Virus record (IMG/VR): IMGVR_UViG_3300025264_000152 | Location: 1 to 20,017 of that record | Source of the DNA: a virus | Reading direction: 5' to 3' (one strand) | DNA: 20,017 nucleotides | Part shown: positions 15,785 to 19,650 of the stretch, in pieces | Position numbering within the stretch: the first letter of the stretch is position 1 | How the letters are laid out: each line of letters opens with the position of its first letter | Made by a program: the position numbers and the translations under genes | Notes under the pieces: generated by a model | The model's database searches: none | What the model saw: the letters and a program-made list of their open reading frames with translations, nothing else | What the model was told of the DNA's origin: nothing

Positions 15785-16426
15785 CTACGGATCCAGAGGC
15801 CTCCCCGGATGACCCCGGAGGAGCTCGCTGAGATCCGTAAACATCTTGGGCTGAGTTACCGAAAGATGGCGAGGATGCTCGGGCTGCTTGACTACATGAT
15901 CGTCAGCCGATGGGAGCACGGGTTCGTCCCGATCCCGCGATACATGAGCCTCTGCATCAGGCTCCTCGCTTTGGTCAAGGGAACTTTGGCGGGGGAGCGG
16001 TTTGGCCTGAAGTAGGTTATGCCAGCGTCCTACGCATAGATGCGGAGTGACATTTTCTTCGTGACATTTCCTGATTATCCGATCGATCTTTCCCTGGAGT
16101 TTTGAATCTGCTCTTGAGTATCTTCCCCACCAGTACTCGGAGATCCTTGAGACTTTCCTCCGGTACTGGACGAGGGTTTGCTTCTCTTCCGCCCGTGACC
16201 TCTTTGCCATATCCTTGAGAGCTTCAAGCACGTTTGCCGGTTGTGGAAAGTGACTCGTTCTGACCATCGCTTTCGTGCATGCCCTCTTGATATCCTCTTC
16301 TGAATATTTCTCCGAGTACATCGAAAGGGTTTCTGCCCACGTATCGATCAGCTCCTGGGTGATCTCCTTCGGTTTCGTTCTGATCGAGTTGAATTTTTTC
16401 AGGACAGCTCTTGCTAGCTCTTGCAT
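15785..16426 (-). CDS. Possible helicase-loader-like replication protein; 3' third doubtful
   Basis: The first 140 of 213 residues look like a real helical protein: MQELARAVLKKFNSIRTKPK, then ITQELIDTWAETLSMYSEKY, EEDIKRACTKAMV, and FPQPANVLEALKDM. This resembles phage helicase-loader or replisome-accessory proteins (the region with an FPP/FPQPA turn), and a later HLCVGRWHNLL also looks structured. The last 77 codons lie antisense to the helix-turn-helix gene at 15809-16015 and are Pro/His/Asp-rich, probably a run-on with no family meaning. The ATG follows CACACACACACTAGAGAGAG, the same kind of CA leader, and an in-frame stop sits just upstream. The 5' end overlaps the winged-helix ORF by 203 bases in another frame. 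Confidence 0.55.
   Translation of the reverse strand: MQELARAVLKKFNSIRTKPKEITQELIDTWAETLSMYSEKYSEEDIKRACTKAMVRTSHFPQPANVLEALKDMAKRSRAEEKQTLVQYRRKVSRISEYWWGRYSRADSKLQGKIDRIIRKCHEENVTPHLCVGRWHNLLQAKPLPRQSSLDQSEEPDAEAHVSRDRDEPVLPSADDHVVKQPEHPRHLSVTQPKMFTDLSELLRGHPGRPLDP
15809..16015 (+). CDS. Small helix-turn-helix transcription regulator (XRE-like)
   Basis: The 68-residue core MTPEELAEIRKHLGLSYRKM, then RMLGLLDYMIVSRWEHG and PIPRYMSLCIRLL, is a five-helix lambda-repressor/XRE-type DNA-binding domain; the recognition helix is about residues 28-38 and WEHG is the usual turn. The frame is open further upstream, through a basic AT-hook-like stretch (KRKAGRPPG), to GTG 15701 or TTG 15695, but those codons run through the CA leader and hairpin, so ATG 15809 is the safest start. 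The gene is richer in GC than its plus-strand neighbours and lies wholly inside the antisense of a minus ORF. It may regulate the early promoter; this is inferred. Confidence 0.7.
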   Translation: MTPEELAEIRKHLGLSYRKMARMLGLLDYMIVSRWEHGFVPIPRYMSLCIRLLALVKGTLAGERFGLK

Positions 16427-16820
16427 GCTCTGCTCTCTCTAGTGTGTGTGTGTTAGAGTGTGCTAGTTTGCTAATTATGTAAGAGTTAGCACTCTTGCTC
16501 TCTATGCTCTCTATACTAGCTCTAGCACCTTCTTCAATAATCCCCCCAAAATTTAGGGGGGGTTTCAGTTTGTATTGATTGGGTCTCCCTTTTTTGGATT
16601 GGACAGTGACCCAGTCAAGTTCCTGTAGACTCCGTAAAGCTGTTCTAACGGTCTCTATGGAACGAAAACCACATCTGAGGCATAGACCCCTGTGTGAGGG
16701 TTTCGCGATCGCTGTGGATGGATTTGAGAACGAATAGAGGGTAATCAGGAGGAGACGCTCGGTTGAACCAAGGCGTTTGTCGTAAAAGATCTCACTCGGG
16801 ATCGGAATGTCCTTTTTCAT
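16224..16820 (-). CDS. Winged-helix replication-type protein; C-terminal half uncertain
   Basis: Residues 1-90 of 198 form a clear winged helix-turn-helix as in phage replication initiators and other helix-turn-helix_36-type proteins: IPSEIFYDKRLGSTERLLLI, CGFRSIETVRTALRSLQELD, then WVTVQSKKGRPNQYKL. After residue 88 comes PPLNFGG, coded by a C7/G6 tract, then a Ser/Glu/Ala-rich linker. The last 67 residues overlap another frame that looks more genuine, so the true C-terminus is unclear. The start overlaps the methyltransferase end by 29 bases with AGGAG nine bases upstream. Likely roles are origin or operator binding. Confidence 0.65.
   Translation of the reverse strand: MKKDIPIPSEIFYDKRLGSTERLLLITLYSFSNPSTAIAKPSHRGLCLRCGFRSIETVRTALRSLQELDWVTVQSKKGRPNQYKLKPPLNFGGIIEEGARASIESIESKSANSYIISKLAHSNTHTLERAEHARASKSCPEKIQLDQNETEGDHPGADRYVGRNPFDVLGEIFRRGYQEGMHESDGQNESLSTTGKRA
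16542..16562. repeat. C6/G7 homopolymer inverted repeat
   Basis: On the plus strand six C (16542-16547), eight A/T bases, then seven G (16556-16562). Six G-C pairs can form on either strand. It sits where the conserved winged-helix domain ends. On the plus strand it is followed by TTTCAGTTTGT, so it could stop rightward transcription; on the minus strand the long homopolymers are possible slippage sites. Confidence 0.45.
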
Positions 16821-17763
16821 TGAAATGCTCTCCTGTTAGAATTTCTTTTGCCCTCAGCAGCGGGATCATGGCGCACCTTGGAACAACCGCATTTCCTAAT
16901 CCTTTAAGTCTGTCCACCCGATTGGGTATCCCATGAGCCACTCGACCCACGTCGGGTTCAGTGAGCCACCTTTCAAAGTCATGGTTTCCGGAGTCCTCAA
17001 TGGGTTTCCTGACCCGCCCCATTCTCCAATCGTTCCAACTTGGTGTTTTCCTGGAGCAGTTGGTGTCGGCCATAGCTTTACTGAGTCTGTTAAGTTTAAT
17101 CCCCAACGGGTTTTCCCGTCTGGAGACATTCTTCCTTCCGGTGTCAGACGTTCTATCGGATTTCCTATTTCCGTTGCCCTCGGTGTCGGCCACATAGCAG
17201 ACGCACCACCACCTCCGCCTGAGATGAGGCGCTCCCACATCGGCTGCGGATACAACCTTCCACTCACAATGATACCCTCGTCCGGCCAGCTCCCCGTAAA
17301 CTCTTCTAGCCCAAGCTCCCCCGTCTCCAGAAAGCAGACCTGGGACGTTTTCCAAAACGAGAATTGGTCTAGCTCCGCAATAGGCGTAGACCTCATCCAC
17401 AATTCGGACAATCTCAAAGAATAGTCCGCTTCGATCCGCTTCAATGCCTCTTCGCGCTCCAGCGTCAGATAAGTCCTGGCACGGGAACCCGGCGGTGATG
17501 AGGTCGATCCTTCCTTCTCTGGGAATAAGGTCAACTGGGTGAAGTTTCCGGACATCCTTAAAAATTGGTATTCCCGGGAAGTTCTTTGCTAAAATCTTCC
17601 ATGTAAATTCCTCGTTATCACAGAAGGCAATCGTATCAAAACCGCCCACCCACCTGGCGGCCAGTGCAAACCCACCGATTCCGCTGAAGAGATCGAGATG
17701 GGTCAGGCATGGGTAAGATATCTTCTCCAGGGAGCTTAAATCTCCCTCACCTTCACGAGACAA
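16792..17763 (-). CDS. DNA C5-cytosine methyltransferase
   Basis: The 323-residue protein contains the standard motif order: motif I LDLFSGIGGFALAARW (23-38, SAM binding), the NFPGIPIFKDVRKL region, motif IV GFPCQDLSDAGARRGI with catalytic Cys95 and RSGLFFEIVRI after it, motif VI LVLENVPGLLS (ENV, 138-140), motif VIII GAPHLRRRWWCVCYVAD, a target-recognition region (about 195-265), and motif X RLKGLGNAVVP near 286-295. It would add a methyl group to C5 of cytosine in an unknown target, probably protecting phage DNA. Length is at the short end of the family. The start is TTG 17763 with AAGGG upstream; it overlaps the RusA-like gene by 28 bases. A second ORF in another frame covers 16896-17555. 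Confidence 0.92.
   Translation of the reverse strand: MSREGEGDLSSLEKISYPCLTHLDLFSGIGGFALAARWVGGFDTIAFCDNEEFTWKILAKNFPGIPIFKDVRKLHPVDLIPREGRIDLITAGFPCQDLSDAGARRGIEADRSGLFFEIVRIVDEVYAYCGARPILVLENVPGLLSGDGGAWARRVYGELAGRGYHCEWKVVSAADVGAPHLRRRWWCVCYVADTEGNGNRKSDRTSDTGRKNVSRRENPLGIKLNRLSKAMADTNCSRKTPSWNDWRMGRVRKPIEDSGNHDFERWLTEPDVGRVAHGIPNRVDRLKGLGNAVVPRCAMIPLLRAKEILTGEHFNEKGHSDPE
16896..17555 (-). CDS. Nested out-of-frame ORF with a conserved phage signature (WPTP / LNPxWVEWLMGxPIGWT protein)
   Basis: This 219-residue ORF lies wholly inside the methyltransferase gene on the same strand but in another frame. Its sequence reads like a protein family common in phage and environmental genomes next to DNA methyltransferases: N-terminal FTQLTLFPEKEGSTSSPPGS, then WKTSQVCFLE, EEFTGSWPDEGIIVSGRLYP, two WPTP motifs (MWPTPRATEIG, KLWPTPTAPG), a Gly-rich run, and the ending SLNPTWVEWLMGYPIGWTDL. 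The frame encodes this over the same DNA that gives motifs IV, VI, VIII and X of the enzyme. The start at ATG 17555 has only AAGG touching it, so expression is uncertain. The function is unknown. Confidence 0.5.
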   Translation of the reverse strand: MSGNFTQLTLFPEKEGSTSSPPGSRARTYLTLEREEALKRIEADYSLRLSELWMRSTPIAELDQFSFWKTSQVCFLETGELGLEEFTGSWPDEGIIVSGRLYPQPMWERLISGGGGGASAMWPTPRATEIGNPIERLTPEGRMSPDGKTRWGLNLTDSVKLWPTPTAPGKHQVGTIGEWGGSGNPLRTPETMTLKGGSLNPTWVEWLMGYPIGWTDLKD

Positions 17764-18092
17764 TATCCCTTCTCCTCCGAGTAAACCTTCTCCACTATGA
17801 TCCTGTAGAGCTGGACATCGTCCTCCCAGATGATCCTGTTCAGTGAATCCAGGAGAACCTTGGAAATGTTGTCGGAGTCACGTTTTCGCAGATCAGGCGG
17901 GTACGCAATGATCATGCATTCGAGCTTCATCGGTTCAGGGTAGAGCGGCAGCTCATCGTGACTGAGCTGAAGCATGAGATGCTTCCTCATGTGACGCTTG
18001 TAGTCTTTTCCCTCCTTGGACACGACCATGCGGTTTCTCCATGCCCTCCAGTAACGGTTGATCGATGGAGGCCAGGGAACCTCGATCGTCAG
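17736..18092 (-). CDS. rusA: RusA-like Holliday-junction resolvase, CTG start
   Basis: The 118-residue protein fits the RusA family. Near the N-terminus VPWPPSINRYWRAWRNR matches the usual P-x-P-P-S-x-N-x-Y-W/R motif, and DLRKRDSDNISKVLLDSLN carries the catalytic Asp cluster (RDSDN) and Lys. WEDDVQLYRI follows. Known RusA proteins cut four-way DNA junctions as dimers, helping resolve phage DNA before packaging. The first ATG (18029) would remove the conserved PPSIN motif. CTG at 18092 keeps it, overlaps the upstream stop as CTGA, and has AGGAAG five bases before it; ATT at 18107 behind GAGG is another possibility. The gene overlaps the methyltransferase by 28 bases. Confidence 0.83.
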   Translation of the reverse strand: MTIEVPWPPSINRYWRAWRNRMVVSKEGKDYKRHMRKHLMLQLSHDELPLYPEPMKLECMIIAYPPDLRKRDSDNISKVLLDSLNRIIWEDDVQLYRIIVEKVYSEEKGYCLVKVREI

Positions 18093-18333: not shown

Positions 18334-18852
18334 TTACAACGCCACCTCCGGCTGGGCGATCTCAGGTTCCTCCGTCTTCCAGGGAAGCTTCCTGCGCTCC
18401 CTGAAAACCATCTTCTTCAATGCAGCAGTCCTTGTAAGTGCATCGCTATGCTCCTTCTTCTGGTTGGAATCCAGAAACCGGGGATCCGTATGCACTAGTC
18501 GAGACAACCCTCTCCGCATCGCTTTCTTCAGCTCCTTATGCATTGCTTTCTCTGAAACTTCAGCCTGTTCCACGGCTGGGACGTACTTGTAGCCCATCCC
18601 AGGCTGCGATACCAGAAGCACCTTGTACTCCGAGAGGAGCAGCTCCTGGAAACGCTGGTTCTGAGTCATGTACGCGAGCTGAATCTGGTCAGCCTTACTC
18701 TTGAGTGTGTGTGGTTCAATCTTTTCCAGACCAAACTTTTCAAACAGCCACTCATGAGTGACAACGTCACCAGGCTCGAACTTCTCTGCAATAAAATCCT
18801 GCACGGCTTGCTTCCATGCAGGGAAAAGCATTGTTTCTTTTTCTTTATTCAT
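18334..18852 (-). CDS. Conserved phage protein of unknown function (172 aa)
   Basis: The protein reads MNKEKETMLFPAWKQAVQDF, then IAEKFEPGDVVTHEWLFEKF, then QLAYMTQNQRFQELLLSEYK, LVSQPGMGYKYVPAVEQAEV, and a long basic helical C-terminus (HKELKKAMRRGLSRLVHTDP). GDVVTHEW...F and a GMGYKYV-type loop suggest a small winged or compact DNA-binding domain followed by a helical tail. I recall it as a conserved hypothetical phage protein. The ATG at 18852 has GGAGAGGACC before it. Codons upstream of it in the same frame come from the pentanucleotide array and are not counted. Confidence 0.65.
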   Translation of the reverse strand: MNKEKETMLFPAWKQAVQDFIAEKFEPGDVVTHEWLFEKFGLEKIEPHTLKSKADQIQLAYMTQNQRFQELLLSEYKVLLVSQPGMGYKYVPAVEQAEVSEKAMHKELKKAMRRGLSRLVHTDPRFLDSNQKKEHSDALTRTAALKKMVFRERRKLPWKTEEPEIAQPEVAL

Positions 18853-18868
18853 GGTCCTCTCCGTTTGG

Positions 18869-19088
18869 TTTCCATTCCTTTCCCTTCCAGTCCTATCCAA
18901 TCCCTTCCGTTCCGATCCTATCCCGTCCCCTCCTCTCCCGTCCATTCCGCTCCGCTCCCTTGCTTACCAGTCCTTTGCGGTCCTTTCCCTTCCAGTCCTT
19001 TCCTATCCTCTCCCCTCCGTTCCGTTCCGTTCCGCTCCTCTCCAGTTCCTTCCACTGCGCTCCGCTCCAATCCGTTCCGCTCCACTCC
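18869..19088. repeat. Degenerate pentanucleotide array, 44 units of NNTCC (GGANN on the minus strand)
   Basis: The 220 bases divide exactly into 44 five-base units without a single indel. On the plus strand 39 of 44 units read NNTCC; exceptions are units 19, 20, 22, 36 and 38, each off by one base in the TCC core. The first two bases vary freely. Three locally longer repeats contain CCAGTCCT. It fills the gap between two minus-strand genes, ending one base from the upstream gene's stop and 16 bases before the next ATG, whose own GGAGAGGACC site looks like two further units shifted by one base. On the mRNA this is a purine-rich ladder of GGA every five bases. Confidence 0.85.
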
Positions 19089-19089
19089 A

Positions 19090-19650
19090 TTAAACAATCT
19101 CGAAACGTCCGTATCCATTCATTCGGTTCTCGCAGAGTCCCTCGATTTCACCGCCTAGACGGATGATGTCAAGAACCTCCTGCATATCCATGATCGCCTC
19201 ATTGACGAGGAGAGTGAACGTGAGTGCCCACTCCCTGAAAATCGGTCTGCAGCGCATTACCCTGGAACCCTGAACAACGACAGATCGGATATCGTGATAT
19301 CCGCCTGACTCCCACATCCGATCCTTGCTCTTTGGCCCGTTGTACTCAATCGGAACTTCAGGCTCCAGGATCTGCACTCCACGCTGAATGTGACGGCCGC
19401 GCCTGCTCAACTTCGCGGAGGATCGAATCGTAGCTTTTATTGCATTTCCCGGCATGATCGGAACATCCTTGAAATAGAGCCCTCCTTCCCATTCAATACG
19501 GAAAATCTGAGCCCAGTCATCATCCGTTTTCTTTCGTTTTGAGGTAAATTCAGCAATCTCCTTCTTTAACGGACTCAAAGGATTGGAAAGCAATTCCGCA
19601 TGAACCATGAGCGGACTCGTCCCTTTAAGTTTGATTTCCTCTCTCTGCAT
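19090..19650 (-). CDS. Conserved phage protein with RAMP-like Gly-rich end
   Basis: The 186-residue protein reads EIKLKGTSPLMVHAELLSNP, then KKEIAEFTSKRKKTDDDWAQ, then GLYFKDVPIMPGNAIKATIR, KLSRRGRHIQRGVQI, a conserved-looking VMRCRPIFREWALTFTLL, and the end NRMNGYGRFEIV. I know this as a phage protein found near single-strand DNA binding or recombination genes. The LxVxGxSPLMVH start and the GxGRFE end resemble the ferredoxin-like RAMP fold (Cas5/6/7 relatives), but no catalytic residue is evident, so this is a structural guess. AAGGAGAG lies before the ATG; that site overlaps the stop of the previous gene. Confidence 0.65.
   Translation of the reverse strand: MQREEIKLKGTSPLMVHAELLSNPLSPLKKEIAEFTSKRKKTDDDWAQIFRIEWEGGLYFKDVPIMPGNAIKATIRSSAKLSRRGRHIQRGVQILEPEVPIEYNGPKSKDRMWESGGYHDIRSVVVQGSRVMRCRPIFREWALTFTLLVNEAIMDMQEVLDIIRLGGEIEGLCENRMNGYGRFEIV

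Follow-up and report, generated by a model that had tools for sequence, protein, structure and literature searches.

A gene nested in the +1 frame of a phage C5-cytosine methyltransferase gene, probably encoding the second subunit of the enzyme

The window analyzed here is a 20-kb virus record (20,017 nucleotides, the whole stretch of DNA under study) and carries two genes that occupy the same DNA (Table 1). The larger, alpha, encodes a C5-cytosine methyltransferase chain, while the smaller, beta (ORF2), sits wholly inside it on the same strand, in the +1 frame of alpha, and is 660 bases long. The original prediction of an ORF at 16896-17555 nested out of frame in a methyltransferase gene was verified in coordinates and frames, and the two readings it gave of the DNA at about 16893-16957 were correct. 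GGAGGAGAAGG is located shortly upstream of the TTG start of alpha. Alpha overlaps both of its neighbors by a few tens of bases: a RusA gene (17736-18029) lies upstream and a helix-turn-helix, replication-initiation-like gene (16224-16820) downstream. Elsewhere in the window, degenerate purine-rich GGANN pentamer repeats extend over ~220 bases (18870-19090, minus strand) before the gene at 18334-18945.

Table 1. Positions in the window of the two overlapping genes and of their sequence features.
Feature	Position	Strand	Basis
Alpha, predicted C5-cytosine methyltransferase subunit; frame 0, 323 aa, TTG start	16792..17763	(-)	ORF and motifs I-VIII and X, without motif IX; Pfam
Beta (ORF2), probable second subunit; +1 frame, 219 aa, ATG start	16896..17555	(-)	ORF, phrog_1008 match, selection tests
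Motif I of alpha (DLFSGIGG)	17671..17694	(-)	Sequence
Motif IV of alpha, catalytic Cys (GFPCQ)	17476..17490	(-)	Sequence
Motif VI of alpha (ENV)	17344..17352	(-)	Sequence
Motif VIII of alpha (HLRRR)	17212..17226	(-)	Sequence
First WPTP motif of beta, residues 122-125	17181..17192	(-)	Alignment of family
Stretch from alpha motif VIII to beta motif IX: presumed target-recognition region in beta, little-constrained spacer in alpha	16962..17192	(-)	Selection tests
Second WPTP motif of beta, residues 162-165	17061..17072	(-)	Alignment of family
Motif IX in beta (LNPTWVEWLMGYPIGWTDL), residues 199-217	16905..16961	(-)	Family alignment, single-chain relatives, M.HhaI alignment
Motif X of alpha (LGNAVVP), at and just past the beta stop codon	16879..16899	(-)	Sequence

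Protein searches were performed separately for each frame. Alpha matched Pfam DNA_methylase (PF00145) at 6e-43 (147.9 bits, cut-off 22), over profile positions 2-181 of 324 only. Beta matched phrog_1008 at 4e-18, with zero matches in Pfam or NCBIfam and none in a PDB sequence search. PHROG 1008 is labeled "DNA methyltransferase," whereas ORF2, despite its match, has no catalytic motifs (PCQ, ENV); only alpha belongs to PF00145, by a score above the cut-off together with these two motifs.

An open frame inside a conserved gene could be a shadow, with its openness and conserved look forced by the amino acids and codon usage of the methyltransferase. We permuted the synonymous codons of alpha within the overlap and rescored the +1 frame against a profile of the beta family. 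Among 57 lineages less than 60% identical, the real +1 frame had a median score of 131 bits vs. 28 bits in the shuffles, and in 57 of the 57 it exceeded all 50 shuffles. The ~28 bits show that part of the beta pattern outlasts synonymous shuffling, which speaks for a shadow, as does the location of nearly all ORF2 matches within methyltransferase genes. For the window, the profile was built excluding its own clade and 1000 permutations were made: the real frame scored 184.6 bits, compared with a mean of 47.8 (sd 13.4) and a maximum of 104.3 in the shuffles. A fully open +1 frame appeared in 0 of the 1000; the evidence was weighed on the scores, because the lack of stops is partly there by construction. 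The N-terminal and C-terminal halves of the window beta each passed the shuffle test separately.

Patterns of divergence showed a switch to the beta frame within the overlap. In 71 independent pairs, alpha position 3 was fastest in the alpha-only 5′ regions (.293 vs..111 at position 1). Within the C-terminal overlap, the fastest was alpha position 1, which corresponds to beta position 3 (.33 vs..27). For 44 close pairs alignable in beta, differences in the beta-C region at the three beta codon positions were.143/.154/.304, the third position was fastest in 42 pairs, and identity over the same sites amounted to.78 in beta vs..63 in the alpha frame. Alpha-only regions gave the normal alpha pattern (.102/.055/.275). 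Because beta third positions (.304) change about like free wobble sites (.275), the alpha frame in the beta-C region is nearly unconstrained. A comparison of a locus identical to the window (L088) with L162 over the stretch from alpha motif VIII to beta motif IX gave 52% identity in beta and 28% in the alpha frame at the same sites. The original prediction had assigned to the enzyme frame motifs IV, VI, and VIII, which are indeed there, and also most of the target-recognition region; by substitution pattern, the enzyme frame has almost no constraint over that region, and ORF2 is the constrained frame. With the alpha frame evolving almost neutrally in this stretch, selection suggests that target recognition resides in beta and not in alpha.

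The first ATG/GTG of beta was preceded by a Shine-Dalgarno match of at least 4 bases in 62% of 279 loci vs. 14% of control starts, and by one of at least 5 bases in 42% vs. 3%. The beta start of the window itself has only AAGG directly abutting the ATG and no well-spaced ribosome-binding site. We conclude that beta is a real gene and that both frames are under selection. The synonymous shuffles and the codon-position patterns led us to reject a shadow ORF, whose probability is negligible also in view of the Shine-Dalgarno enrichment and of relatives, described below, in which the beta segment is in frame in a single chain or forms a downstream gene. The claim that the second frame is more than a chance shadow was thus borne out: its hits come with strong constraint beyond that of the enzyme frame, not as shadow hits lacking it.

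A tblastn search with ORF2 gave matches at less than 60% identity in phages of Microcystis, Lacticaseibacillus, Acinetobacter, Paenibacillus, Pseudomonas, and others; in all seven examples inspected, the match lay in the +1 frame of a C5-methyltransferase. Scans of IMG/VR and GTDB genomes yielded hundreds of further ORF2-like loci, spanning Pseudomonadota, Bacillota, Bacteroidota, Spirochaetota, Planctomycetota, and other phyla. The possibility that beta is a stand-alone family unrelated to the methyltransferase was ruled out, as 243 of the 246 ORF2-like ORFs occupy the +1 frame of a methyltransferase. The nested +1 pair was present in 377 fetched loci forming 85 clusters at 60% alpha identity, in agreement with the earlier suggestion of an overprinted gene from a recurrent phage family. 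Methyltransferase queries, which do not select for ORF2, collected 125 loci: 102 had ORF2 in the +1 frame, 3 had it in a different frame relation, and those lacking it (20) were either canonical enzymes, whose motif IX is in frame, or frames that stop after motif VIII.

The nested arrangement occurs in dozens of distantly related phage lineages, and annotations usually miss or mislabel beta. In Paenibacillus larvae phages, a methyltransferase label is found on both frames. The methylase of Streptomyces phage phiBT1 (L397) is annotated as "may be inactive," and the +1 frame of that locus holds an ORF, absent from the annotation, in which LPTP, motif IX, and motif X are all found. Our literature search found no description of this nested arrangement in phages. 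Two-polypeptide C5-methyltransferases as a kind were already known; the present pair stands out by how widespread and how often mis-annotated it is.

The motif IX pattern was detected in the alpha frame of 1 of the 377 loci and in the beta frame of 337. The end of beta is formed by motif IX, LNPTWVEWLMGYPIGW, comparable to the LHPRECARVMGYPDSY that stands ahead of motif X in M.HhaI, and LNPTWVEWLMGYPIGWTDL at the beta end is nearly invariant in the family alignment; canonical enzymes from the same searches have RRLTPVECEALMGWP or RLTPLECERLMGFP as motif IX. The beta segment aligns with M.HhaI 273-310, a homology by position and pattern, as the segment alone scores 0 bits in HMMER. In single-chain relatives (L227 from a Pelosinus MAG, L440, L480, mycobacteriophage ArcusAngelus, and others), one frame carries the motif IX segment with motif X after it, and L227 has the order motifs I-VIII, recognition region, motif IX; when the alpha and beta fragments were aligned onto L227, motif IX did not align. 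In split relatives (mycobacteriophages Steamy, Zulu, and Bora; phiBT1), a +1-frame ORF with the motif IX segment and motif X starts inside alpha and continues beyond its end. The family thus exists in three forms, single chain, split, and nested, and a check for beta outside the nested form found it both in downstream genes that overlap in part and, in frame, within single-chain enzymes. In some actinophage single chains (L395, L401-L416), the +1 frame is still beta-like upstream of LPTP, which may be left over from a split or nested ancestor or may be a shadow.

M.HhaI and M.HaeIII share the same catalytic motifs but are single chains, whereas here the small-domain part forms a separate overprinted gene. 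An AlphaFold model of a single-chain relative (L407; pTM 0.71) had the M.HhaI fold over its whole length (residues 1-382; Z 23.0, 251 residues aligned, 3.6 Å), with pLDDT of about 84-96 in the motif IX region and low confidence in the presumed recognition region. Beta modeled alone gave no confident fold (mean pLDDT 61.7), which would not be surprising for a subunit whose folding depends on its partner, and a Foldseek search with this low-confidence model found no PDB match.

Because alpha lacks motif IX, beta ends in it, and relatives are single-chain or split, beta is probably the second, motif IX-carrying subunit of a two-polypeptide C5-methyltransferase. We assign a probability of about 0.88 to the reading that alpha and nested beta, encoded at this locus, are the two subunits of one C5-cytosine DNA methyltransferase. 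Alpha would form the catalytic body, with AdoMet binding, the PCQ nucleophile, ENV, motif VIII, the spacer, and motif X, and beta, once translated, would contribute the small domain, i.e., the WPTP-rich region (the probable target-recognition domain) and motif IX. The two would associate into an active enzyme, like the two chains of M.EcoHK31I, with a likely role in marking phage DNA against host restriction.

The L227 order is also exactly what ribosomal frameshifting from the alpha into the beta frame after motif VIII would produce, namely one chain with motifs I-VIII, the recognition region, and motif IX. Such a fusion would stop short of motif X, which is in the alpha frame, and would make no use of beta upstream of WPTP; yet this part is constrained in the window (64.6 bits vs. 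a mean of 29.3 and a maximum of 49.4 in shuffles). This N-terminal shuffle test, along with the Shine-Dalgarno enrichment that gives beta start sites of its own, disfavors the fusion, and we consider it unlikely. Beta could also act on alpha as an independent small inhibitor or regulator and be no structural part of the enzyme, and its nesting, with co-expression by position, would suit such a role. Against this, motif IX is absent from alpha and present in beta at the matching place, and alpha and beta are joined in single-chain relatives, which makes a regulator very unlikely. The original proposal that beta modulates the enzyme is too weak, as the evidence suggests that the enzyme needs beta as a second subunit, one that bears motif IX and probably the target-recognition domain too.

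M.EcoHK31I (YGGCCR) belongs to a bacterial restriction system, whereas the present pair is found in a phage; M.EaeI is also a two-polypeptide C5-methyltransferase. Lee, Kam and Shaw reportedly found in 1995 that the small-subunit gene of M.EcoHK31I lies inside the large-subunit gene in a different reading frame, as the second gene does here. The large M.EcoHK31I subunit has motifs I-VIII and X and the small polypeptide motif IX (PMC3404938), the same division as between alpha and beta, a likeness in anatomy; the enzyme has been termed naturally split (PMC3439449). Its predicted recognition domain is placed by review text in the large subunit (PMC3404938), whereas selection here suggests the small one. 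When an Acinetobacter beta served as the query to look for plasmid relatives resembling EcoHK31I, 4 records were returned, none from Escherichia. In M.AquI, two chains jointly form one enzyme, as proposed here, and the second chain holds both motifs IX and X (PMC3404938); here, in contrast, motif X remains in alpha, and beta is nested and stops at it. The M.AquI layout, not seen in the window beta, was found in Zulu, Bora, and phiBT1 and in Steamy gp77/gp76 and relatives.

Same-strand nested genes so long (660 bases, both selected) and so old (85 clusters, many bacterial phyla) are rare, and the nested pairs, from phages and prophages, are natural material well suited to testing the theory of overlapping genes. 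We lean toward a wider reading, in which specificity across dozens of phage lineages would be written in the nested, usually unannotated frame, the annotated frame would serve there as a nearly selection-free spacer to motif X, and paired frameshifts would move the family among its three forms. For many phage methyltransferases, the annotation lists only one of the two proteins or gives two "methyltransferases." If the two-subunit reading is true, alpha cloned alone would be a dead enzyme, and if recognition resides in beta, specificity predicted from alpha would rest on the wrong frame.

A further observation concerns the N-terminus of beta, close to which Q-L-T-L-F is encoded at 17523-17537 of the window (minus strand; MSGNFTQLTLFPE). 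It is present in ~80 of 325 distinct betas and resembles the bacterial sliding-clamp binding motif QL[SD]LF.
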